DNA from: Nitrospira sp.
Lineage (GTDB): Bacteria; Nitrospirota; Nitrospiria; Nitrospirales; Nitrospiraceae
Assembly (NCBI GenBank): GCA_029194535.1
Contig: JARFXR010000001.1
Span: forward strand, 1,620,721-1,684,720
Direction of reading: 5' to 3'
Length of the DNA stretch: 64,000 nt
In this document: positions 6,689 through 33,429 of the stretch, piece by piece
Position numbering within the stretch: the stretch's first letter is position 1
Layout of the letters: the number at the start of each line of letters is the position of its first letter
The notes under the pieces: model-generated
The model's input: the letters and a program-made list of their open reading frames with translations, nothing else
The model's database searches: none
What the model was told of the DNA's origin: nothing
Position numbers and translations under genes: made by a program

Positions 6689-7577
6689 TTTCTTCCTGTC
6701 GCCGATTCCGCCGTTTCGGCTTGCGCTGACGGTGTGGGCGTTGCGCCGGCGCCCGAACAATACCATGGATCGCTGGGAGGACGGGACCTATCGACGAACC
6801 CTCGTCGTCGACGCCTTGCCGATTCAGGTTGCCGTCAAACAGCCATGCGCCGCGCTGGCCGTCACCGTGAGCGGGGCCGCCCTGCCGTCTAGGGCACAGG
6901 CGGACGTGACGGCCGCATTGAATCAACTGTTGGGGCTCCGCGTAGACCTTCGGAAGTTTTATCGGGTGACCACTCGGGAAGCGAAGCTGCATCAGTTGGC
7001 ACGGCGCTTTCACGGGCTGAAACCGCCTCGTTTTCCCACTGTGTTTGAAGCGCTGGTCAATGCCATCTCATGCCAGCAACTCAGCTTGACGGTCGGAATT
7101 ACTCTGATGAATCGGCTGACGGAGCGCTACGGGTTAGGGAGCCGGGACGAAGGCCGGGCCTTCCCACGTCCGGAAGACGTGGCCAAGGCCGAGGTCAGGG
7201 CGCTGAGAACGTTGGGATATAGCCGGAGCAAGGGGCAGGCCCTGATTGACGCGGCTCGAGTGATTGAGGAAGGCAAGCTCGATCTCGATCGTCTCACAAT
7301 CATGGACGACGCTGAGATCGTGAGTCGGTTGATGGAGTTGCGAGGGGTAGGCCGTTGGACGGCGGAGTACACGTTGCTGCGCGGCCTCGGACGGATTCAC
7401 CAGTTTCCCGGCGATGATGTCGGCGCGCAAAAGGGTCTCCAACGCTGGTTACAGCTCAGACGGTCACCGGACTATGACCATGTTCGCAAGGTGCTGCGCA
7501 AGTGGCGACCCTATGCGGGGTTGATTTACTTTCATCTGCTGCTCGATGGTCTCGACCGAAGGGGATTGGTGGGATGA
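6675..7577 (+). CDS. AlkA-like DNA-3-methyladenine glycosylase
   Basis: This is a base-excision repair glycosylase of the HhH-GPD superfamily (300 residues). The N-terminal third resembles the AlkA N-terminal domain. The catalytic half starts near residue 115 (FPTVFEALVNAISCQQLSL). The helix-hairpin-helix is LMELRGVGRWTAEY at about residues 220-233, and the likely catalytic aspartate is D248 in FPGDDVGAQ. Such enzymes remove alkylated purines from DNA. The ATG at 6675 lies inside the USP relic, so its 5' sequence is borrowed. A start at the internal ATG at 6762 is possible. The downstream gene overlaps by ATGA, indicating a two-gene operon. Confidence 0.88.
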   Translation: MKQIDFFLSPIPPFRLALTVWALRRRPNNTMDRWEDGTYRRTLVVDALPIQVAVKQPCAALAVTVSGAALPSRAQADVTAALNQLLGLRVDLRKFYRVTTREAKLHQLARRFHGLKPPRFPTVFEALVNAISCQQLSLTVGITLMNRLTERYGLGSRDEGRAFPRPEDVAKAEVRALRTLGYSRSKGQALIDAARVIEEGKLDLDRLTIMDDAEIVSRLMELRGVGRWTAEYTLLRGLGRIHQFPGDDVGAQKGLQRWLQLRRSPDYDHVRKVLRKWRPYAGLIYFHLLLDGLDRRGLVG

Positions 7578-18696: not shown

Positions 18697-20043
18697 ATGA
18701 GGGTGTCGGTCATAGGAGCAGGTTATGTTGGGCTTGTAACGGCAGTTTGTCTTGCCGAGAAGGGGCATGACGTTACCTGTGTTGATGTCGATCAGGCCAA
18801 AGTGGACTCGATTAATAAAGGGGTGCCGCCTATTTATGAACAAGGATTGGAATATCTACTTAGGAAGCATGTTGGTGGACGATTACGCGCATCGACGGAT
18901 CTTTCAGGCTCTGTGCAACAGACAGATCTCTCCTTGATCGCGGTCGGGACCCCTTTTGACGGCCGCGAGATCGATCTTACTCACATCAAAGCCGTCTCGC
19001 GACAAATTGGACAGGCATTGCGGACGAAGTTGGGCTATCACGTCGTGATCGTCAAGAGTACTGTGGTTCCTGGGACGACGGATGACGTGGTGTGTCCCAT
19101 CCTCGAAGACGCCTCTGGCAAGAAAGCCGGGGTTGATTTTGGAGTCGGGATGAACCCGGAATTCCTCACAGAGGGGGAGGCCGTACATGATTTCCTGTTT
19201 CCCGACCGGATCGTTCTCGGGGGATTGGATAAGGCAACCACCGATGAGCAGGCGAAACTGTACGAAGGATTCCCAGGGGTCGAGGTGCTTCGAACGAACA
19301 ATAAGACAGCGGAGATGATCAAGTACACTTCAAACGCCTTACTAGCTAGCTTGATCTCATTCTCCAATGAAATAGCCAACCTCTGCGTAGCCGTAAAAGA
19401 TGTCGATGTCCTTGACGTCATGCGCGGAGTCCATTCCAGTCGCTACCTGTGTGTCGATATGCCGGATGGGAAAAGAGTTCAGCCACAGATTGTGTCCTTT
19501 CTGGCCGCAGGGTGCGGATTCGGCGGTAGCTGCTTTCCAAAAGACGTAAAGGCTCTGACGGCGCATGGCGAAAGAGTTCATGTGCCCATGCATGTACTCG
19601 ACTCGGTCCTCAAGGTGAATGAACAGCAGCCAGCACGGGTCATTCAACTGCTGAAGAAGCATTTTACGTTGCTAGAAGGAGTAAGAGTCTCGATTCTCGG
19701 TCTAGCGTTCCGGCCCGACACGAACGACATGAGGGAGTCGCCAGCCATTCCAATTGTGCGGAGGTTGCTGCGGGAAGGAGCAGTGGTGAAAGGCTACGAC
19801 CCTGTGGCCGCAGACGAGGCGAGGAAGATATTCTCCTTGCAAGATTTGGCATTGAGCGAGAGTCTTTCCGATGCTCTGACGGAAACTGATGCTATCGTGC
19901 TGGTAACCCGTTGGGATGAATTCAGGAAAGTTCCGGAGCTGATAAAGGGGAAGGTCCCGCAGCCACTCTTCGTTGACGGTCGTCGTTTCCTCGATAAGAC
20001 AACCATTGCGCGTTACGAAGGGATCGGGTTTGAGTCGAAATGA
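18697..20043 (+). CDS. ugd: UDP-glucose/nucleotide-sugar 6-dehydrogenase
   Basis: This oxidises the C6 hydroxyl of a nucleotide sugar to the uronic acid in two NAD+-dependent steps. The 448-residue protein starts with the Rossmann motif MRVSVIGAGYVGLVTAVCLA. It has the central KSTVVPGT segment and carries the nucleophilic cysteine C279 in GCGFGGSCFPKD, then the C-terminal NAD-binding domain (VSILGLAFRPDTNDMRESP). GAAAGG precedes the ATG at 18697; the longer frame upstream is not needed. The nucleotide sugar (glucose, N-acetylglucosamine or mannose) cannot be fixed by eye. The next gene overlaps by ATGA. Confidence 0.9.
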   Translation: MRVSVIGAGYVGLVTAVCLAEKGHDVTCVDVDQAKVDSINKGVPPIYEQGLEYLLRKHVGGRLRASTDLSGSVQQTDLSLIAVGTPFDGREIDLTHIKAVSRQIGQALRTKLGYHVVIVKSTVVPGTTDDVVCPILEDASGKKAGVDFGVGMNPEFLTEGEAVHDFLFPDRIVLGGLDKATTDEQAKLYEGFPGVEVLRTNNKTAEMIKYTSNALLASLISFSNEIANLCVAVKDVDVLDVMRGVHSSRYLCVDMPDGKRVQPQIVSFLAAGCGFGGSCFPKDVKALTAHGERVHVPMHVLDSVLKVNEQQPARVIQLLKKHFTLLEGVRVSILGLAFRPDTNDMRESPAIPIVRRLLREGAVVKGYDPVAADEARKIFSLQDLALSESLSDALTETDAIVLVTRWDEFRKVPELIKGKVPQPLFVDGRRFLDKTTIARYEGIGFESK

Positions 20044-20564
20044 TCTTTACGGAAACGAAGCTCAAGGGCTCGTATGTTATCGATCTTGAGCGAATTACAG
20101 ATGAACGGGGATTTTTCGCGCGAGGCTGGTGTGCCAAAGAATTCTCATCCCATGGATTGAGCCCCGTCATAGCGCAGGTGAATATTGGACATAGTACTAA
20201 GAAGGGGACGATCCGAGGCATGCACTTCCAGATTGCTCCTTACGCCGAAGTGAAAGTGGTGCATTGCAATAGGGGATCGTTGTACGACGTAATTATCGAT
20301 CTGCGGGAGGGCTCTTCTACTAGGGGTCAGTGGGTTGGTGTGGAATTAACTGCGAGCAACGGGCGCATGGTCTACGTGCCGGAAGGATTCGCACACGGAT
20401 ATCAGACGTTGGAGGATGAGACGCGCCTCGTCTATCAAACTTCGCAGTTTTATGTCAAGGAAGCTGCGAAAGGCGTGCGGTATAACGATTCGGCGTTTGC
20501 AATTGCCTGGCCGCTGCCCGTGAGCGTTGTGTCAAGTGGGGACGACAATTGGCCTGATTACTAA
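20040..20564 (+). CDS. dTDP-4-dehydrorhamnose 3,5-epimerase-like protein
   Basis: This is an RmlC/RfbC-type cupin of 174 residues that epimerises C3 and/or C5 of a 4-keto nucleotide sugar. Recognised elements are ERITDERGFFARGWCAKEF, the catalytic histidine region KGTIRGMHFQ, the strand VKVVHCNRGSLYDVIIDLR and YVPEGFAHGYQTLED. The usual length is about 180. The start overlaps the stop of the dehydrogenase gene. It belongs to the nucleotide-sugar cassette 17496-24381; no RmlA/B/D set is present, so the product is unlikely to be plain dTDP-rhamnose. Confidence 0.88.
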   Translation: MIFTETKLKGSYVIDLERITDERGFFARGWCAKEFSSHGLSPVIAQVNIGHSTKKGTIRGMHFQIAPYAEVKVVHCNRGSLYDVIIDLREGSSTRGQWVGVELTASNGRMVYVPEGFAHGYQTLEDETRLVYQTSQFYVKEAAKGVRYNDSAFAIAWPLPVSVVSSGDDNWPDY

Positions 20565-20582: not shown

Positions 20583-21515
20583 ATGAGCGTATCTGACGAA
20601 TCCAAACGAGTACTGGTAACGGGAGCGACGGGATTTATCGGGTCCCATTGTCTGGCCCCTCTTCTCCAACGAGGCTACGAAATTCACGCAGTATCGACGA
20701 AATTGGCAATGAAAGCGGACTCGTCGATAGTCTGGCATCGGGCAGATCTTTTAGACGACTCATCTATTTTACATCTGATGCAATCGATAAAGCCGACACA
20801 TTTGCTTCATCTTGCCTGGTACGTCGTTCCGGGAAAACTGATTTCGTCCGATCTCAACTTCGATTGGGTTCGTTCAAGCATGGACTTATTGAGGGCGTTT
20901 CAGCAGCAGGGAGGGCAACGGGTGGTCATGTCCGGCTCCAGTTATGAATACGACTGGAATTTCGGATATTGCCACGAAACGAGAACGCCGACGGTGCCGA
21001 ATACAATTTATGGAGTGTGTAAACACGCCTTGAACGTGATGGCTCAGGCGTATTGCCGGATGCATGGAGTTAGCCAGGCGTGGCCCAGGGTCTTCTTTTT
21101 GTATGGCCCGAACGAACATCCTGATCGCTTGGTGTCATCCGTCATTCGTTCACTTCTGCAAGGTCGAGAAGCGCGATGTTCTCACGGGAAGCAGATTCGC
21201 GACTATCTTCATGTACAAGATGTGGCAGATGCGATCGTGTCTGTCCTGGACTGTGGAATTGAAGGCGACGTCAATATCGGATCCGGCACAGCCGTCACGT
21301 TGCGAGAGATGATCGCGACGATCGGCTGCACATTGGGCCGGGGAGATCTCGTCAAGCTGGGAGCCATTGCGAGCCGCGCAAACGATGCGCCGCTTGTGGT
21401 GGCCGATGTCGAACGCTTGAACACCGAGGTGAAGTGGATGCCCAGGTTTTCAATAGAAGAAGGGCTCAAACACACGATCGAGTGGTGGCGACACTCGTTC
21501 GTGGAAAACAGGTAA
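20583..21515 (+). CDS. NAD(P)-dependent sugar epimerase/reductase (extended SDR)
   Basis: The 310-residue SDR has the NAD(P) motif TGATGFIGSH (about residues 14-23), HLAWYVVPGK in the sugar-binding region, VMSGSSYEYDW (Ser) and the catalytic tyrosine/lysine in YGVCKHAL. It resembles the 4-ketoreductase or epimerase partner of RfbC-type enzymes, for example CDP-abequose/paratose or dTDP-4-keto-6-deoxyhexose reductases. It follows the RfbC-like gene by 18 bases, so the two probably act in sequence on a 4-keto intermediate. Confidence 0.82.
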   Translation: MSVSDESKRVLVTGATGFIGSHCLAPLLQRGYEIHAVSTKLAMKADSSIVWHRADLLDDSSILHLMQSIKPTHLLHLAWYVVPGKLISSDLNFDWVRSSMDLLRAFQQQGGQRVVMSGSSYEYDWNFGYCHETRTPTVPNTIYGVCKHALNVMAQAYCRMHGVSQAWPRVFFLYGPNEHPDRLVSSVIRSLLQGREARCSHGKQIRDYLHVQDVADAIVSVLDCGIEGDVNIGSGTAVTLREMIATIGCTLGRGDLVKLGAIASRANDAPLVVADVERLNTEVKWMPRFSIEEGLKHTIEWWRHSFVENR

Positions 21516-21524
21516 CGAGGACAA

Positions 21525-22850
21525 GTGGAACGGATCGCGATTTTGGGGTCAGGAATGGCGGGGTTCGGCGCCGCACATCGATTCCATGCTGAAGGCCATC
21601 GAGCGACTCTGTACGAAAAGCGTCCATACTACGGCGGGCACACGGCTTCCTACTCTTTCGCCAACGGATTTACGATCGACGAAGGACCGCATGTCTCGTT
21701 TACCCGAGTCGAACGAATTCAAAAGCTTCTTGCAGCGAGCGTAGACGAAAAGTTTGAGCGTCTCAGAACGAAGGTCAACAATCATTGGAAAGGGCACTGG
21801 ATCAAGCACCCGGCTCAGTGCAATCTCTACGGCCTTCCGCAGGACCTCATCGTCGACATACTGAAGGATTTTATCCATGCTCAGCACACGGAGTACGGTG
21901 AGATCAAGAATTATCAGGACTGGCTCTATGCGAGCTTCGGTAAAAGATTCGCCGAAACCTTTCCTATGGAATACACGGTCAAGTACCACACCACGACAGC
22001 GGCAAACATGAGTACAGATTGGGTTGGCCCGCGACTCTACCGAGCGAAGATCGAAGAGGTGTTGCGCGGTGCGCTCTCGCCATCCACACCTGACGTGCAT
22101 TATATCGACCAGTTCCGCTATCCATCTCACGGAGGTTTTGTATCCTATCTGAAAATGTTCATGAAACAAGCGGAGCTTCAGGCCGATCATGAGCTCATCC
22201 AAATTATTCCTAAGCGCAAAGAACTCCGCTTCAAGAACGGGAATGTCGTCGCGTATGACCACGTCGTTTCATCCATCCCCCTGCCGGATTTGATCAAGAT
22301 GGTTGACGGAGCGCCGACCGACGTGCTGGACGCTTCTCAGAGACTATCTTGCAGTACAGTCGTGATTGTGAGCGTGGGGGTTGATCGCGCCGATCTGATT
22401 GACGCGCACTGGACATATTTTTATGATCGTGACTACTTCTTTACACGGCTGAGCACGCCACATTTGCAGTCACCGAACAATGTGCCGGAGGGTTGCGGGA
22501 GTATTCAGGCTGAGTGTTACTATTCCGCAAAGTATCGCCCGCTCGACCGAAAACCTGAAGACTGTATTGAGCCGGTGATCAACGACCTAAAGCGCTGCGG
22601 CATCTTGCGTGAAGAGGATAGGATTCTCTTCAAACACGCGATGCTCGTGCCGTATGCGAACGTGATCTTCGACTTAGAACGTGCCTCTGCGGTCAAGACC
22701 ATTCATGGCTATCTTGACGACATCGAGATAGCCTACTGCGGGCGCTACGGCGATTGGGCATATATTTGGACGGATGAATCGTTCATGAGCGGCGAGAATG
22801 CCGCGCAAAGAGTGTTGGATCGTTTGGGGACAGGTGCGGCGAAGGTCTGA
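21525..22850 (+). CDS. FAD-dependent amine-oxidase-fold oxidoreductase
   Basis: The 441-residue protein begins with a dinucleotide-binding motif ILGSGMAGFGAAHRF followed by the acidic end LYEKRPYYGGHTASY, typical of the protoporphyrinogen oxidase/amine oxidase/UDP-galactopyranose mutase fold. A C-terminal FAD-contact region is around AYCGRYGDWAYIWTDES. The start is a GTG nine bases after the preceding stop. The substrate is not known. In polysaccharide clusters such enzymes are thought to act on nucleotide sugars or on lipid-linked intermediates. I could not find the UGM-specific arginine pattern, so I keep the general call. Confidence 0.75.
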   Translation: MERIAILGSGMAGFGAAHRFHAEGHRATLYEKRPYYGGHTASYSFANGFTIDEGPHVSFTRVERIQKLLAASVDEKFERLRTKVNNHWKGHWIKHPAQCNLYGLPQDLIVDILKDFIHAQHTEYGEIKNYQDWLYASFGKRFAETFPMEYTVKYHTTTAANMSTDWVGPRLYRAKIEEVLRGALSPSTPDVHYIDQFRYPSHGGFVSYLKMFMKQAELQADHELIQIIPKRKELRFKNGNVVAYDHVVSSIPLPDLIKMVDGAPTDVLDASQRLSCSTVVIVSVGVDRADLIDAHWTYFYDRDYFFTRLSTPHLQSPNNVPEGCGSIQAECYYSAKYRPLDRKPEDCIEPVINDLKRCGILREEDRILFKHAMLVPYANVIFDLERASAVKTIHGYLDDIEIAYCGRYGDWAYIWTDESFMSGENAAQRVLDRLGTGAAKV

Positions 22851-22880: not shown

Positions 22881-23675
22881 ATGAAGGTCGTTTTGTTTTG
22901 CGGAGGGTTGGGCATGCGGCTGCGGGAATACTCGGAGTCGATTCCAAAGCCGATGGTTCCGATCGGGTATCGACCCATCATGTGGCACGTGATGAAGTAC
23001 TACGCTCACTTCGGACACAAGGACTTTATCCTATGTTTGGGGCACGGAGCGGATATCGTCAAGCGTTATTTTTTGCAATACGACGAATGTCAGTCGAACG
23101 ATTTCGTCCTTTCCCAAGGTGGAAAGCATATCGATCTGATCAATTCGGATATTCAAGATTGGAACATCACGTTCGCAGATACCGGGGTGACCTCCAATAT
23201 AGGTCAACGACTGAAGGCCGTTGAGCGATATCTGGAAGGGGAGGACATATTCTTGGCAAATTACAGCGATGGCTTAACCGATCTATATTTGCCTGCTCAA
23301 ATCGAACAGTTTCGTGCGCATGGGAAGCTCGCGAGCTGTATTTGCGTCATCCCGCCCTTGAGTTATCACATCATCTCTATGGGCAAAGACGATCATGTTG
23401 AAAAAATCGAAGGTATGAGCCAGGGTAACATGAGGGTCAATGGCGGATATTTTATCTTCAGGAAGGATATATTTCGCTATATCAAGCCTGGGGAAGAACT
23501 TGTGGTCGAGCCTTTCCAGAGATTGATCAAAGAGCACCAGTTGCTTGGCTATAAGCATGATGGTTATTGGGAGTGCATGGATACGTTCAAGGATAAACAA
23601 CGGTTGGATGAGATGTATGGACGAGGAGATGCGCCTTGGGAATTATGGAAGGCGAATCGGGCAAGTACTGTGTGA
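22881..23675 (+). CDS. Glucose-1-phosphate cytidylyltransferase-like nucleotidyltransferase
   Basis: This enzyme (264 residues) makes a CDP-sugar (or other NDP-sugar) from a sugar 1-phosphate. The nucleotidyltransferase signature is FCGGLGMRLREYSESIPKPM (residues 6-25), followed by VPIGYRPIMWHVMKYYAHFG as in RfbF. Metal and sugar binding are suggested by LANYSDGLTD, and the ending YWECMDTFKDKQ is typical of RfbF. It is the best hint that the cassette makes CDP-linked sugars. It is preceded by AAGTGAGGAA. Confidence 0.88.
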   Translation: MKVVLFCGGLGMRLREYSESIPKPMVPIGYRPIMWHVMKYYAHFGHKDFILCLGHGADIVKRYFLQYDECQSNDFVLSQGGKHIDLINSDIQDWNITFADTGVTSNIGQRLKAVERYLEGEDIFLANYSDGLTDLYLPAQIEQFRAHGKLASCICVIPPLSYHIISMGKDDHVEKIEGMSQGNMRVNGGYFIFRKDIFRYIKPGEELVVEPFQRLIKEHQLLGYKHDGYWECMDTFKDKQRLDEMYGRGDAPWELWKANRASTV

Positions 23676-23724: not shown

Positions 23725-24381
23725 ATGCCCGTGCAGGGTATTTTTCAGGTTCCCCATAAACCTCTCAAGGTTTTATGCCTCGGAGCACATTCCGACGATA
23801 TCGAGATAGGATGTGGTGGGACGGTGCTCAAGCTTTTGCGCGAACATCCTGGCAGCGAAGTACTGTGGGTGATATTCAGTGCAAGGGGAAAGCGCAAGCA
23901 AGAGGCAATGTCTAGCGCGAAAGCCTACCTTGCTCAAGCGGGCTCTGCACGTATCGAGGCAAAGTCATTCAAGGAAAGCTTCTTTCCATACCATGGTGAG
24001 GTCATCAAGGAATATTTTGAGAGTCTCAAATTACTGATCTCCCCAGACATCATTTTTACCCATTATCGTCATGATTGCCATCAGGACCACCGAATCATTT
24101 GTGAATTAACGTGGAATACATTCCGTAGGCATCAGATCCTTGAGTTCGAAATACCAAAATACGACGGCGATCTCGGCCAGCCGAATTTGTATGTGCCGCT
24201 AACGGACGCCGTGTGCAAAACCAAGGTGAAGCTACTCATGACTGGCTTTTCTTCGCAGCGAAGCAGGCAGTGGTTCACAGAGGATACCTTCTATGCGCTG
24301 CTTCGGCTTCGAGGCATCGAATCATACGCGACGGAGAAGTATGCTGAAGCTTTTTATGGCCGGAAGATTGTAATTGGGTAA
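23725..24381 (+). CDS. PIG-L/LmbE-like deacetylase
   Basis: This is a zinc-dependent N-deacetylase of the LmbE/PIG-L family (218 residues), which removes acetyl groups from amino sugars such as GlcNAc in carrier-linked form. The metal-binding motif AHSDDIEIGCGG lies near residues 20-31 and the second motif THYRHDCHQDHR near 115-126. The length is normal. It lies 50 bases after the cytidylyltransferase-like gene and closes the conserved nucleotide-sugar cassette. Confidence 0.88.
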   Translation: MPVQGIFQVPHKPLKVLCLGAHSDDIEIGCGGTVLKLLREHPGSEVLWVIFSARGKRKQEAMSSAKAYLAQAGSARIEAKSFKESFFPYHGEVIKEYFESLKLLISPDIIFTHYRHDCHQDHRIICELTWNTFRRHQILEFEIPKYDGDLGQPNLYVPLTDAVCKTKVKLLMTGFSSQRSRQWFTEDTFYALLRLRGIESYATEKYAEAFYGRKIVIG

Positions 24382-25637: not shown

Positions 25638-26230
25638 GCAATTGGCGTTGTTTGGTTAGAGATGGACTGGTGTGTGCGCTCTCCGGTCAAGGAGACACTG
25701 TTGGTAACCTCCTCCCAGAAAACGAGACCACCCAAAGCTGGGAAAATCAGCTGAGCTGCAGCGTTCTCAACCAGGAAGGCGACAATGGGGAGCTTACTAC
25801 GGCGACCTGCCCGACTCACCATCCCTACACCTGCGGGCGCGGGCTCGATGACCATTGATGTACGAATCACCGCTTCTCCGTCAGCTTCTTGATCTGCTCC
25901 TCCTTCACGGCGTCTCCGTCATTCGCCCGCCCCCGCTGGGTGTTTCGGCCCCACGGAGCAATTTTCCCCCGCCAGTCTTCGTCCTCGACCGCAGGCAGCC
26001 CGTCGCGACGCGTCGCTTAGGCGTCATAGTCAAGCGTTCAATGGGATCTGCGGTTTCTGATGCCCTCTCCACTTCCTCGATTCATGCAGGACCATGTCGT
26101 AGAGGTGGCCTCAATTTCAAGGGGAGCAGGAAAATGTAGTTGTACCAGCTACGATGTGAGTCAGGGGTATTGTGGCGTAAGGGATTCATGTGGATGTGAA
26201 ACACCTATCGTACGGGGCCTGGGATACAGC
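25638..26230. other. Gene-poor stretch with a possible minus-strand peptide relic
   Basis: No intact gene is recognised in these 593 bases. On the minus strand, from about 25999 down to a stop at 25867, a short frame reads GLPAVEDEDWRGKIAPWGRN and ends in VKEEQIKKLTEKR. It has the character of a real protein end but is interrupted by a stop upstream and belongs to no family I know. Plus-strand frames look non-coding. The stretch may be the scar of a lost module. Confidence 0.4.
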
Positions 26231-26692
26231 ATGAAAGCCATGACAACGAGACTGTTGAGGTGCATTGAAGTAGTCGTGTTGAGCCTTGGGAAGCCGCCGC
26301 TGTATGAAATCTATCTCGCAGCGATCGGCTACTTGATGTTTCCTCTATACCATCGCCTCTTTGGCCAGTATTTGGGATACCTCTCTATTTGGTTCATTTT
26401 CGGTGTTTTACTTGGACTTAAACTGGTCCCGGCAATCGTGAGAGGATTGCTACCCTTCTCGGAAAGGGCTCAAAGATGTTGGGCCAACCACCGTCTGCTT
26501 GGGAAGAGATATGACTCCTACCAGCTTCGGAAGCTGTTGTGGATTGGGCTGGGCCTGGTCGGATACCTGGCCATGTTCGGCAACTTCGGCGGCCTGAGAG
26601 GCCTACTCGCAGTGACATGCCTGCTAGCCGGCGGAATCGGATGGTTGGTTTGGCAGAACAAGGGGATTAGTGGCTTAGGATGCCATGATTGA
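26231..26692 (+). CDS. Small multi-pass membrane protein of unknown function
   Basis: From the ATG at 26231 the 153-residue product is strongly hydrophobic, with about four membrane segments: around YLAAIGYLMFPLYH, LSIWFIFGVLLGLKLV, LLWIGLGLVGYLAMF and LLAVTCLLAGGIGWLVW. A short positively charged loop (RCWANHRLLGKRYDSY) separates the halves. A longer open frame begins at 26060, but its first 57 codons look non-coding and Cys-rich. No family is recognised. It precedes the Cys-rich duplicated protein gene on the same strand by ~210 bases. Confidence 0.5.
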   Translation: MKAMTTRLLRCIEVVVLSLGKPPLYEIYLAAIGYLMFPLYHRLFGQYLGYLSIWFIFGVLLGLKLVPAIVRGLLPFSERAQRCWANHRLLGKRYDSYQLRKLLWIGLGLVGYLAMFGNFGGLRGLLAVTCLLAGGIGWLVWQNKGISGLGCHD

Positions 26693-26903: not shown

Positions 26904-28001
26904 ATGAATGACTGCTCAAAACTTCGTGCCGGTGAATGGGTTCGGGTCAAGAGCAAGATCGAGATCTTGAAGACTCTGGACAATAGCGGCCAACTGGAGC
27001 AGCTCCCCTTTATGCCGGAAATGTTTCAGTATTGCGGGCAGCGCATTAGAGTATTTAAGCGGGCCCATAAGACCTGTGATCCACCGAATGGTCTTGAGGG
27101 ACGGCGGGTGACGAACGCGGTGCATTTAACTGATGTTCGTTGCGATGGGCGAGCCCATGGCGGCTGCCAGGCGGGGTGTTTAATATTCTGGAAGGATGCC
27201 TGGTTAGAGCGGGTAAACGATGAAGCAGAATCTCTTTCAAGGTTCGAGATTGCGAAGGCACAGCTGAATGAAAAACAATGCGGCACGCTCAGTGGTTGTA
27301 CTGAGCGAGAGGTGTGGGCAGGGACTCTTGCTTCCCGCGATGAAACAGATCCAGCTGAAGTGACGTATGTGTGCCAGTCCACCAATTTAGCAAAGGCCAC
27401 TCACCCATTGTATTGGTGGGATCCGAGGCAATACATGGAGGACTACACCTCCGGTAACGTTCGGCTCTCTCAGATTCTAGCTACCTTCCTGTTCTTTATT
27501 TACTCCACCATAGCCCGAGGGGGGTTCGGTGTGGGGGCTGCCATGCGCTGGGCGTACGATTGTTTTCAGAAACTCCGTGGAGGAGTCGTGTATCCCATAC
27601 GTGTGGGTAAGATTCCAAAGGGAGCGCAGACACCGGCGGCCCGCTTGAATCTCGAAATAGGCGAACTCGTTAGAGTAAAGAGCTACAAGGAAATTCTGAG
27701 CACCTTAAACGAGATATCACATAACCGCGGGATGTATTTTGACGCAGAGGCAGTTCCTTATTGTGGTGGAGCCTACGAGGTGCTTGGGCGCGTAGAAAAG
27801 ATTATCAATGAAAAGACAGGGAGAATGATGAACATAAAGAACGATGCGGTAATTCTGAAAGGGGTAGGCTGTCAGGCTCGGTATGCACAATGCCGCAGGT
27901 TTTGTCCCAGGAGCATTTATGTCTATTGGCGAGAGATCTGGCTCGAAAGGGTCACCAATGAAGGTCACCATACGGCGAGCAAGGCCCGGAACAGCCCATA
28001 G
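26904..28001 (+). CDS. Cys-rich protein with two tandem copies of an unknown domain
   Basis: The 365-residue protein contains the same ~100-residue domain twice (about residues 8-105 and 245-350), joined by a ~130-residue linker that also has cysteines and, near the middle, a hydrophobic stretch (LATFLFFIYSTIA). Each copy starts GE-x-VRVKS-x2-EIL-x-TL, has YCG in its middle, and ends C-x6/7-C-x3-C-x5-W-[KR]-[DE]-x-WLERV. The four repeated cysteines (one in YCG, three in the C-x-C-x-C group) suggest a metal or Fe-S site in each half. From memory the single-domain form is a conserved uncharacterised family; I cannot name a function. Its place inside a polysaccharide locus points to a role in modifying the product. 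Confidence 0.75.
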   Translation: MNDCSKLRAGEWVRVKSKIEILKTLDNSGQLEQLPFMPEMFQYCGQRIRVFKRAHKTCDPPNGLEGRRVTNAVHLTDVRCDGRAHGGCQAGCLIFWKDAWLERVNDEAESLSRFEIAKAQLNEKQCGTLSGCTEREVWAGTLASRDETDPAEVTYVCQSTNLAKATHPLYWWDPRQYMEDYTSGNVRLSQILATFLFFIYSTIARGGFGVGAAMRWAYDCFQKLRGGVVYPIRVGKIPKGAQTPAARLNLEIGELVRVKSYKEILSTLNEISHNRGMYFDAEAVPYCGGAYEVLGRVEKIINEKTGRMMNIKNDAVILKGVGCQARYAQCRRFCPRSIYVYWREIWLERVTNEGHHTASKARNSP

Positions 28002-28232: not shown

Positions 28233-29735
28233 ATGAGTTTGAAAGCTGATACATCAAATGAATCCTACCGCCAGATCCTGAGGTCTACGACCATTCTTGG
28301 CGGGGCATCATTTATCAGTATAGTGCTAAGAATGCTGAGAACGAAGTTCCTGGCTATTCTCCTTGGCCCGGCCGGCATAGGGTTATGGGCAATTTTTAAT
28401 TCGATTGCGGAGATGGCAGGGGCGGTAGCGGCGATGGGTATCGATAGTAGCGGCGTGAAACGAATCGCCGAATCGGCAGGTAGTCCTGAGCAAGAGAAAC
28501 TTGCTCGTACCGTTCATGCGATCCGAAGGGCGATGTGGTGTCTGGGGGTCGGTGGGATGATCATCGTCATCCTACTAAGTCCCCTGATTTCCCAGTTCAC
28601 ATTTGGAAACGAAGTGCATTCGTTTGAAATCATGCTCCTCTCCATTGTGATTGTCTGCGGGACGATAATGAATGGAGAGATAGCTCTGATTCAGGGAATG
28701 CGCAGGGTCGGCGATCTAGCGAAGGTGAATATCATCGGTGCATTTTGGGGAACGCTTTTGGCCGTTCCAATTGTGTACATATGGGGGCAGAAGGGGGTTG
28801 TCCCCTCCTTGATAGCTGTTTCTGGAATAAGTCTACTGGCCACATGGTGGTATGCCAGGAAGATTGAGGTAACCTGCATACGCATGGGCTGGACAGAGGT
28901 TTTGAGAGAAGTCAAGCCTGTGCTTGCTCTCGGTGCGGCGGTAATGGGTAGTGTGTTTGTATATAGAGGTACACCGTACCTGGTCAATGTCCTTGTTAGA
29001 AAGCGAATTGGCATAGAAGGGGTGGGCTTACTCCAAGCTGCGACGGTTTTATCTTCGATTTACGCGGGGTTTATTATCGATTCTATGGGCAAAGACTATT
29101 TGCCACGCCTATCCGCCATTGCGAGCAACGATGCGGCATGCAACAAGCTCGTCAATGAGCAACTCAAGATTGCTCTTCTCATAGCCGTGCCAGGAATCGT
29201 TGCCACGCTTACTTTCGCACCTCTGATCCTACAAATCTTTTACTCGAGCGAGTTCATTGCTGCCTTTGAAATTCTGCGATGGCAGGTTATGGGAATATTA
29301 TTGCAGGTAGTAAGTTGGCCGATCTTCAGCATTCTGTTAGCCAAAGGATATGGGAAGTTGTTTTTTGCGACGTTTGCGATATCGAACGTCCTTTATATTG
29401 GGTTAGCTGTGGTAGCGATCTCTTACGCTGGATTGGACGGCGTCGGAATGGCTTTCTTCGGCATGTGGGCATTCTATACGGTGCTCATTTACAGTATTGC
29501 AAAGTATTTGACGGGGTTTACCTGCTCAAGTGCGAATGCTCGAGTTGCCTTGGTGACCTTCTCCGCCGTAGTAGGCGTCTTCGCTTCCGGATTTCTGTTC
29601 AAACCGTTCTGGTCCATGGTTATCGGAGGCACCATGCTCATAGCCATGGTTCTCTACTTACTTAAGTCATTATCAGGAGTCATGGGTCCTGGTGGACTTC
29701 TCCCTATCTTGAAGTCAAGCAAAGCGCTCGGCTAG
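28233..29735 (+). CDS. Lipid-linked oligosaccharide flippase (Wzx family)
   Basis: This inner-membrane protein of 500 residues with about 12-14 hydrophobic segments flips undecaprenyl-diphosphate-linked repeat units to the periplasmic side. The N-terminus (ILGGASFISIVLRMLRTKFL, then AILLGPAGIGLWAIFNSI) is typical of the MATE-like O-antigen translocase/WzxE subfamily. Middle features include VVPSLIAVSGISLLATWW and YFSE-type loops. It is the export step that links the glycosyltransferases with the Wzy polymerase at 52927-54288. It is preceded by ~230 bases without a gene. Confidence 0.88.
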   Translation: MSLKADTSNESYRQILRSTTILGGASFISIVLRMLRTKFLAILLGPAGIGLWAIFNSIAEMAGAVAAMGIDSSGVKRIAESAGSPEQEKLARTVHAIRRAMWCLGVGGMIIVILLSPLISQFTFGNEVHSFEIMLLSIVIVCGTIMNGEIALIQGMRRVGDLAKVNIIGAFWGTLLAVPIVYIWGQKGVVPSLIAVSGISLLATWWYARKIEVTCIRMGWTEVLREVKPVLALGAAVMGSVFVYRGTPYLVNVLVRKRIGIEGVGLLQAATVLSSIYAGFIIDSMGKDYLPRLSAIASNDAACNKLVNEQLKIALLIAVPGIVATLTFAPLILQIFYSSEFIAAFEILRWQVMGILLQVVSWPIFSILLAKGYGKLFFATFAISNVLYIGLAVVAISYAGLDGVGMAFFGMWAFYTVLIYSIAKYLTGFTCSSANARVALVTFSAVVGVFASGFLFKPFWSMVIGGTMLIAMVLYLLKSLSGVMGPGGLLPILKSSKALG

Positions 29736-32241: not shown

Positions 32242-33429
32242 ATGAATATGGCACAGGTAGTGATCATAGGTGCGGGGCCGTACGGGCTCTCACTCGCGGC
32301 ATATCTCAAGGCACGGGGTGTCAACTTTCGAATCTTTGGCAACCCGATGGGCTTTTGGTTGAAGCACATGCCCAAAGGCATGCGGTTAAAATCAGAGGGT
32401 TTTGCCTCCTTTCTGTATGATCCGGATTCGGCCTTCACTCTTAAGCACTACTGTGAGCGGGCAGGGCTTGCATATGCTGACCTCGGACTTCCAGTCCCGT
32501 TGGAGACGTTTACCTCTTACGGTTTGGAATTTCAAAAGAGATTTGTGCCTGAGCTTGAGGACAAGCTCGTCGTTTCAGTGCGCAGAGCCGGTATGGGCTT
32601 TCAAGTGAGCATCGAAGACGGAGAAATCGTCAAGACTCAACAGGTGGTACTAGCAGTGGGATTGACCTATTACGCGTATCTTCCTCCCATCTTGTCCTCG
32701 CTTCCAAAAGAACTCGTAAGTCATAGCTCCGCACACAACTGTCTTGACCGATTTAAAGGGCGTGAAGTAGCCGTAGTGGGAGCAGGGGCATCGGCTCTGG
32801 ATTTGGCAGCGTTGCTTCATCAGGCTGGAGCTCTTGTCCAATTGGTCGCTAGAGGATCGGAAATTCACTTTCATACGCAGCGAATCAAGCCACCGACCCT
32901 GATTGACCAGCTTCGCGCCCCAATTACGGGAATCGGACCTGGCTGGAAATTGTTTTGGTGTACAAACTTACCGCTGGTCTTCCGTCTGATGCCAGAGCGA
33001 TTTCGGTTCCTTGTTGCGCAGAAGATCCTCGGTCCGGCCCCAGGTTGGTTCATCAAGGAAGAGGTGGTAGACAAGGTGCCGTTCAACCTAGGGGTGACCA
33101 TCACGGAGGCAAGCGCTAAAAATGGCCGTGTATATCTTCAGTTAACTGATAGTTCGGGTTCTCCTAGGACGCTGGTAACAGATCACGTAATCGCGGCGAC
33201 CGGCTATAAGGTCGATCTACGGCGGTTGACCTTCTTGGATTCAGAAATCCAATCAGGAATGCGATCCGTCGATCACACGCCGATATTATCCTCCAAGTTT
33301 GAATCTTCTGTGCCAGGCCTCTATCTGGTCGGTGTTTCCGCAACACACACCTTCGGGCCCCTGCTTCGCTTTGCTTTCGGAGCCAGATTCACCGCAGCCC
33401 GGCTATCGAGGCACCTCGCAAAAGTCTGA
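32242..33429 (+). CDS. FAD/NAD(P)-dependent oxidoreductase (flavin monooxygenase-like)
   Basis: The 395-residue protein has two dinucleotide-binding motifs. The first is VVIIGAGPYGLSLAAYLKA at the N-terminus for FAD. The second is VAVVGAGASALDLAALLHQA (about residues 175-194) for NAD(P)H, followed by the ATGYKVDL motif typical of N-hydroxylating and Baeyer-Villiger-type monooxygenases. The resemblance is to proteins that hydroxylate or oxidise small substrates. The substrate in this locus is not known; an N-oxidised or otherwise oxidised sugar or amino acid decoration is possible. A long spacer (about 125 bases) separates it from wecB. Confidence 0.82.
   Translation: MNMAQVVIIGAGPYGLSLAAYLKARGVNFRIFGNPMGFWLKHMPKGMRLKSEGFASFLYDPDSAFTLKHYCERAGLAYADLGLPVPLETFTSYGLEFQKRFVPELEDKLVVSVRRAGMGFQVSIEDGEIVKTQQVVLAVGLTYYAYLPPILSSLPKELVSHSSAHNCLDRFKGREVAVVGAGASALDLAALLHQAGALVQLVARGSEIHFHTQRIKPPTLIDQLRAPITGIGPGWKLFWCTNLPLVFRLMPERFRFLVAQKILGPAPGWFIKEEVVDKVPFNLGVTITEASAKNGRVYLQLTDSSGSPRTLVTDHVIAATGYKVDLRRLTFLDSEIQSGMRSVDHTPILSSKFESSVPGLYLVGVSATHTFGPLLRFAFGARFTAARLSRHLAKV

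Follow-up and report, generated by a model that had tools for sequence, protein, structure and literature searches.

What does a cysteine-rich protein built of two similar halves contribute to an EPS locus? The question is raised by a gene of Nitrospira sp. that lies within the stretch of DNA analysed here (64,000 nucleotides; hereafter the window). An initial annotation, made from the sequence alone, had placed this gene at positions 26904-28001 and in an EPS setting, both of which were confirmed together with the open reading frame itself. The gene, whose product is called the Cys protein below, is present in one copy in the genome to which the window belongs, and a search of that genome for a single-domain paralogue found none. 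The relevant features of the window are the following.

20040..20564, + strand: RfbC-like 3,5-epimerase, conserved neighbour (similarity cluster that includes Mesorhizobium rfbC)
20583..21515, + strand: NAD-dependent epimerase/dehydratase, conserved neighbour (Pfam PF01370)
22881..23675, + strand: sugar-phosphate nucleotidyltransferase, conserved neighbour paired with PIG-L (Pfam PF00483)
23725..24381, + strand: PIG-L family deacetylase, conserved neighbour (Pfam PF02585)
26060..26692, + strand: small hydrophobic protein, directly upstream (no Pfam match)
26904..28001, + strand: gene of the two-domain Cys protein, 365 residues (open reading frame, dN/dS, 29 relatives, hydropathy scan)
26916..27224, + strand: N-terminal domain, predicted SH3-like barrel, residues 5-107, with C58, C80, C88 and C92 (alignment, AlphaFold2, Foldseek)
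27075..27077, + strand: codon of the invariant Cys58 (KTC motif; 29 of 29)
27141..27179, + strand: C80-x7-C88-x3-C92 cluster (RCDGxAHGGCQAxC), all three cysteines invariant (29 of 29)
27225..27632, + strand: linker, mostly helical and variable, with the invariant Cys157 (Y-x-C-Q; 29 of 29) at 27372-27374
27633..27959, + strand: C-terminal homologous domain, residues 244-352, with the codons of C323 (27870-27872) and C334 (27903-27905) and WREIWL at its end (alignment, hhalign against the N-terminal domain, dN/dS)
28233..29735, + strand: Wzx-type flippase (Polysacc_synt_3), next gene, 232 bp off (Pfam)

Duplication, selection and distribution

The two halves of the Cys protein, of about 105 residues each, are homologous. 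They are 35% identical by BLASTP (E 2e-16), their local alignment score of 137 compares with at most 47 (mean 25.5) over 1000 shuffles, and the alignment by hhalign of family-wide profiles of the two halves gave a probability of 99.9 and an E value of 6e-36. The duplication claimed in the initial annotation is thus borne out, and the YCG and GE-x-VRVKS-x2-EIL motifs that it described as common to the two copies are found in both. In a tree of the domains, the copies of the first half form one group (SH-aLRT 99), separate from those of the second half (77), which indicates that the duplication is old and predates the spread of the protein over phyla; the single-domain forms fall outside the first-half group, at positions without confidence. 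Purifying selection acts on the gene, as indicated by a dN/dS of 0.13 in the comparison with its 87%-identical counterpart at locus L002 (Nitrospira sp. isolate RSF11), in which the second domain displays the lowest value within the protein (0.05).

In Pfam and NCBIfam, the Cys protein of the window scored above the cut-off of no family, and 28 relatives yielded no credible family; no convincing match by sequence was obtained in the PDB, and no Fe-S protein family was matched in any of these three collections. No characterised family having been matched, the earlier claim of unknown function holds, and, as judged by sequence comparison, the family is undescribed in the libraries tested. The predicted fold is a known one and the locus is of a known kind; it is the protein family itself that is undescribed, and with seven invariant cysteines over four phyla it would merit a family entry of its own.

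A search for single- and double-domain relatives, which the initial annotation had proposed as a check, yielded both kinds, namely 29 two-domain proteins, the window's included, most of which are encoded in EPS-type loci, and two single-domain proteins (L062, 7744-8307; L072, 1738-2253). Their hosts are Nitrospirota (10 of 198 genomes), Acidobacteriota (11 of 247), Alphaproteobacteria, on chromosomes as well as plasmids, and one actinomycete (Nonomuraea). In the class of Dongia the protein was found in three of 289 genomes, and in its phylum, Pseudomonadota, in three of 398; the plasmid-borne relatives are those of Mesorhizobium and Bosea. WP_024505408 is the orthologue of Mesorhizobium ciceri. 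A CQ motif heads the single domain of the L062 protein, which therefore looks like the linker followed by one domain. Viral contigs (three scans) and phage records (one scan) contained no relative, and an anti-phage defence search gave no credible match. Selenocysteine encoded by an in-frame TGA was considered for three relatives and rejected: for L011 and L012 the alignment had overrun an ordinary stop codon, and L010 ends at the same place.

Predicted fold and invariant cysteines

Structure prediction, also suggested in the initial annotation, produced a usable model of the first half. Computed with AlphaFold2 from an eight-row alignment with rows from both halves, this model reached a pLDDT of 84.5 and a pTM of 0.76 and displays the SH3-like strand order (strands at domain positions 8-11, 43-49, 68-75, 89-93, and 97-99); the full-length model, computed from four sequences, was poor (pLDDT 45). 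Among solved structures, Foldseek ranked first the MZM-REP region of Mind bomb 1 (4xi6; probability 1.00, E 0.05, TM 0.51), and Mind bomb entries recurred at ranks 4, 9, and 14. Further matches were to ribosomal, nitrile hydratase beta (2ahj), and NdhS entries, which we take to be small SH3-like barrels, and a comparison with viral models repeatedly brought up proteins named 'Mind bomb SH3 repeat domain'. By sequence, the sole Pfam match was to SH3_15 (PF18346, Mind bomb), with 16 bits and an E value of about 0.015 against a gathering cut-off of 24 bits. At E values of at most 1, SH3_15 matched four of the 29 family members (best E 0.013), and a search with it in 190 genomes of the class of Dongia found no match, the controls likewise remaining without match. 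With good confidence, the first half is predicted to be an SH3-like barrel.

The Mind bomb repeats (SH3_15/MZM-REP; 4xi6, 4xi7, 4tse) appear to resemble the Cys protein in being SH3-like barrels arranged in tandem, and they are its best match by sequence as well as by structure. In contrast, Mind bomb is a eukaryotic ubiquitin ligase, the Cys protein remains below the Pfam cut-off, and we know of no four-cysteine knuckle in the Mind bomb repeats. Since the E value given by Foldseek is weak and the TM score is 0.51, the likeness is regarded here as an analogy and not as a shown homology. The C-terminal domain of nitrile hydratase beta (PF02211) shares with the Cys protein the predicted SH3-like barrel and a GDxVxxR-type start, but it does not have the cysteines. 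Kinship to it was tested and not supported: with a nitrile hydratase beta profile built from 14 sequences, hhalign gave 14-20% over 15 columns, compared with 0.1-0.8% for unrelated families, and there was no Pfam match.

Seven cysteines are invariant in all 29 proteins, namely C58, C80, C88, and C92 in the first half, C157 in the linker, and C323 and C334 in the second half. Of the 24 invariant columns, 7 are cysteines, compared with an expectation of about 0.9 from the 13 cysteines among the 348 positions. The idea that the cysteines are conserved in homologues is thus correct for the key ones, which are kept over four phyla, but not for C330 (9 of 29) or for the two cysteines of the YCG motifs, C44 (23 of 29) and C287 (24 of 29), which the initial annotation had counted as retained, while it had overlooked the invariant C58 and C157. 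The remaining relatives have Ile or Phe in place of C44, and this position would thus seem to belong to the core rather than to provide a ligand. The x5-W spacing ascribed to both halves proved inaccurate, the actual arrangements being C80-x7-C88-x3-C92-x3-W and C323-x6-C330-x3-C334-x7-W. Similarly, the cysteines were said to be kept in both halves; invariant ones do occur in each, but the two sets are not equivalent and do not match one to one. In the profile alignment of the halves, C80 pairs with C323 and C88 with C334, C92 lies opposite I338 and has no Cys partner in most second halves, and C330 falls within an insertion.

All four candidate ligands of the first half, C58, C80, C88, and C92, are thus invariant. 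The second half could draw on C157, C323, and C334, likewise invariant, and on a variable fourth position, 327, where five Acidobacteriota relatives have Cys and most other proteins Tyr. In the single-domain L062 protein the KTC cysteine is absent, and the CQ motif and three domain cysteines provide four potential ligands. Such a shifting source of the fourth cysteine is what a metal site would allow, which is suggestive of a metal but is not proof. The four cysteines of the first half and the three-plus-one of the second probably form metal sites; the 'metal or Fe-S' role put forward in the initial annotation may apply, and zinc would seem likelier than iron-sulfur.

Linkage to one kind of surface-polysaccharide locus

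The neighborhoods of 30 loci were compared, with genes clustered by similarity and counted at distances of at most 12 kb from the Cys protein gene. PIG-L is found in 18 of these loci, the nucleotidyltransferase in 17, the epimerase and the Wzx-type flippase in 14 each, RfbC and DUF4910 in 11 each, and a C-methyltransferase in 10. As gene order and strands vary among loci while the neighbors are kept, the linkage appears to be maintained by selection. The Mesorhizobium plasmids and Nonomuraea have the same neighbors as the window locus, and the presence of the whole locus on the former provides a culturable organism for its study. Wzx is the most frequent immediate neighbor of the Cys protein, although fewer than half of the loci have the two side by side. 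The two genes are at most 150 bp apart in six of the 30 loci; they abut or overlap in Mesorhizobium and Nonomuraea, are separated by 29 bp in L060, and lie about 100-140 bp apart in L003, L045, and L049. On the Bosea plasmid, Wzx is the only recognizable polysaccharide gene near the Cys protein.

Two other genes of the window locus recur elsewhere. The small hydrophobic protein encoded directly upstream has relatives in L002, L052, and L060, adjacent to the Cys protein or in its vicinity, and L002 and L049 contain, in the corresponding position, relatives of an FAD amine-oxidase-like protein (21525-22850).

For loci of this type, a study of DUF4910 proteins has proposed a modified surface carbohydrate (PMC4000134). 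The sugar locus of the DUF4910/M28-like protein CA_C2195 is the same kind of modified-surface-sugar locus, CA_C2195 itself being unrelated to the Cys protein; the word 'cysteine' is absent from the main text of that article, which thus appears not to describe the Cys protein family (PMC4000134).

In Nitrospirota, the association with this kind of locus is nearly perfect. Among 198 genomes, in which the nucleotidyltransferase was counted at 59% identity or more, 12 harbor both the nucleotidyltransferase and PIG-L, and the Cys protein is present in 10 of these 12 compared with none of the 186 others (Fisher p about 3e-15, an optimistic value as related genomes are not independent). The Cys protein is a conserved component of the nucleotidyltransferase/PIG-L surface-polysaccharide locus. 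The two genomes without it (G187 and G141; loci L085 and L086) have the nucleotidyltransferase/PIG-L pair alone, outside an EPS locus, which suggests that the pair is a unit with a use of its own. A separate observation concerns the Nitrospirota genome G050, in which one contig has an intact Cys protein gene beside a PIG-L copy. Another has a PIG-L that is 99% identical, together with the nucleotidyltransferase and a Cys protein gene reduced to its first ~43 codons, as if a partial duplication or rearrangement had cut through it (loci L087, G050:C13, about 7080-7208, and L050, G050:C9).

Possible roles and relatives in other settings

The reading favored here, which is held tentatively and with a probability of about 0.42, is that the Cys protein is a soluble tandem SH3-like adaptor with two Cys-ligated, probably zinc, sites, that couples glycan-precursor assembly to Wzx. 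It would serve as an accessory to surface-polysaccharide loci of a single, widely exchanged class, and its location would be cytoplasmic: no signal peptide is evident in the window protein, whose domain, like that of most relatives, begins no more than about six residues from the N-terminus, and a hydropathy scan of the family found no conserved transmembrane segment. Each half would form an SH3-like β-barrel with a cysteine knuckle at one end, composed of C58/C80/C88/C92 in the first half and, in the second, of the linker residue C157 folding back, C323, C334, and the variable fourth position, and each knuckle would most likely hold one structural zinc ion. The tandem barrels would serve as a docking adaptor rather than as a catalyst, keeping the nucleotidyltransferase, the PIG-L deacetylase, and glycosyltransferases near Wzx at the inner membrane face, and the finished modified repeat unit would then be handed to export.

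Three points favor an adaptor: docking of partners is common among SH3-like barrels, which bind more often than they catalyze; the sets of sugar enzymes with which the protein is retained differ; and none of its immediate neighbors is as constant as Wzx. Being encoded next to a Wzx-type flippase is a property that it shares with accessory proteins of Wzx/Wzy pathways. To our knowledge, no component of these pathways is a cytoplasmic Cys-rich tandem SH3-like protein, and a literature search combining SH3-like, Wzx, zinc, and exopolysaccharide returned no such component. The specificity and control of the flippase step are long-standing open questions, and if the Cys protein does act on Wzx, it would represent a missing cytoplasmic part of that step. 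The 'undescribed biochemistry' announced in the initial annotation goes beyond the data, as an SH3-like barrel with structural zinc would account for the pattern no less well than a new enzyme.

The main rival, which we find doubtful, is an enzyme of the sugar pathway that would modify the sugar or the carrier lipid, its cysteines binding either an Fe-S cluster or a catalytic zinc, one coordination site of the second half being left open. The strict invariance of the cysteines, a second-half site of three cysteines and one variable position, the invariant polar residues R336, R343, and E344 close to it, and the tight linkage to modified-sugar genes (C-methyltransferase, DUF4910, PIG-L, and nucleotidyltransferase) would all suit such an activity. 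On the other hand, it would be unusual for SH3-like barrels, C-x7-C-x3-C resembles no Fe-S motif known to us, relatives occur without a sugar pathway (L065, L066, and L068-L070), and the Cys protein is retained in the window, L002, and L049, where the C-methyltransferase and DUF4910 are absent. A metal or redox sensor, reshaped on loss of zinc or oxidation of its cysteines and controlling export, for instance via Wzx or a glycosyltransferase, is in our estimation unlikely. The Cys-rich tandem barrels are compatible with it, as are the metal/RND efflux genes near L045 and L065, the PepSY gene and response regulator at L065, and ScdA/hemerythrin at L066 and, by sequence likeness, at L069; yet the metal-related neighbors vary between loci, no DNA-binding domain was found, and the four invariant cysteines of the first half fit a fixed structural site equally well. 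The same low credence is given to a metal-dependent gatekeeper of export, in which the tandem SH3-like protein, with its four-Cys and three-Cys-plus-one sites, would license the Wzx flippase after sensing the metal or redox state or checking that the modified sugar is finished; we know of no metal-dependent licensing step in Wzx/Wzy pathways.

That the gene is a passenger, moved with the locus by horizontal transfer and devoid of any polysaccharide role, would account for its patchy distribution in Nitrospirota (10/198) and Pseudomonadota (3/398) and for its carriage on plasmids, but is improbable in view of its retention with the same partners over four phyla, in gene orders that vary, the purifying selection, and the co-occurrence described above (10/12 vs. 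0/186). Least probable of all are structural disulfides of a secreted protein, to which the presence of a Cys-rich protein in a surface locus, and nothing more specific, would point, whereas the lack of an evident signal peptide, the start of the domain so close to the N-terminus, and the odd number of invariant cysteines across the family argue against them.

The docking adaptor preferred here was proposed for EPS loci, but the divergent Acidobacteriota relatives often lie outside such loci, beside PII, ScdA/hemerythrin, or PepSY genes, with EPS-like settings at L067 and perhaps L071. From these varied settings, the Cys domain is not tied to a single pathway, and its role cannot be entirely EPS-specific. 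The relative at L065 (9718-10812) is flanked by a PepSY gene on one side and a two-component response regulator on the other, and RND-efflux-like genes lie nearby, neighbors that hint at a possible metal link. FemAB-like acetyltransferases adjoin the relatives at L062, L071, and L072, and an AMP-ligase/carrier cluster hosts those at L061 and L062. The latter are two family members on one contig of a Bryobacteraceae genome, in a natural-product-like cluster that comprises an AMP-binding ligase, a homoserine O-succinyltransferase-like gene, a TPP enzyme, FemAB-like transferases, and an FAD enzyme related to that encoded at 32242-33429 in the window.
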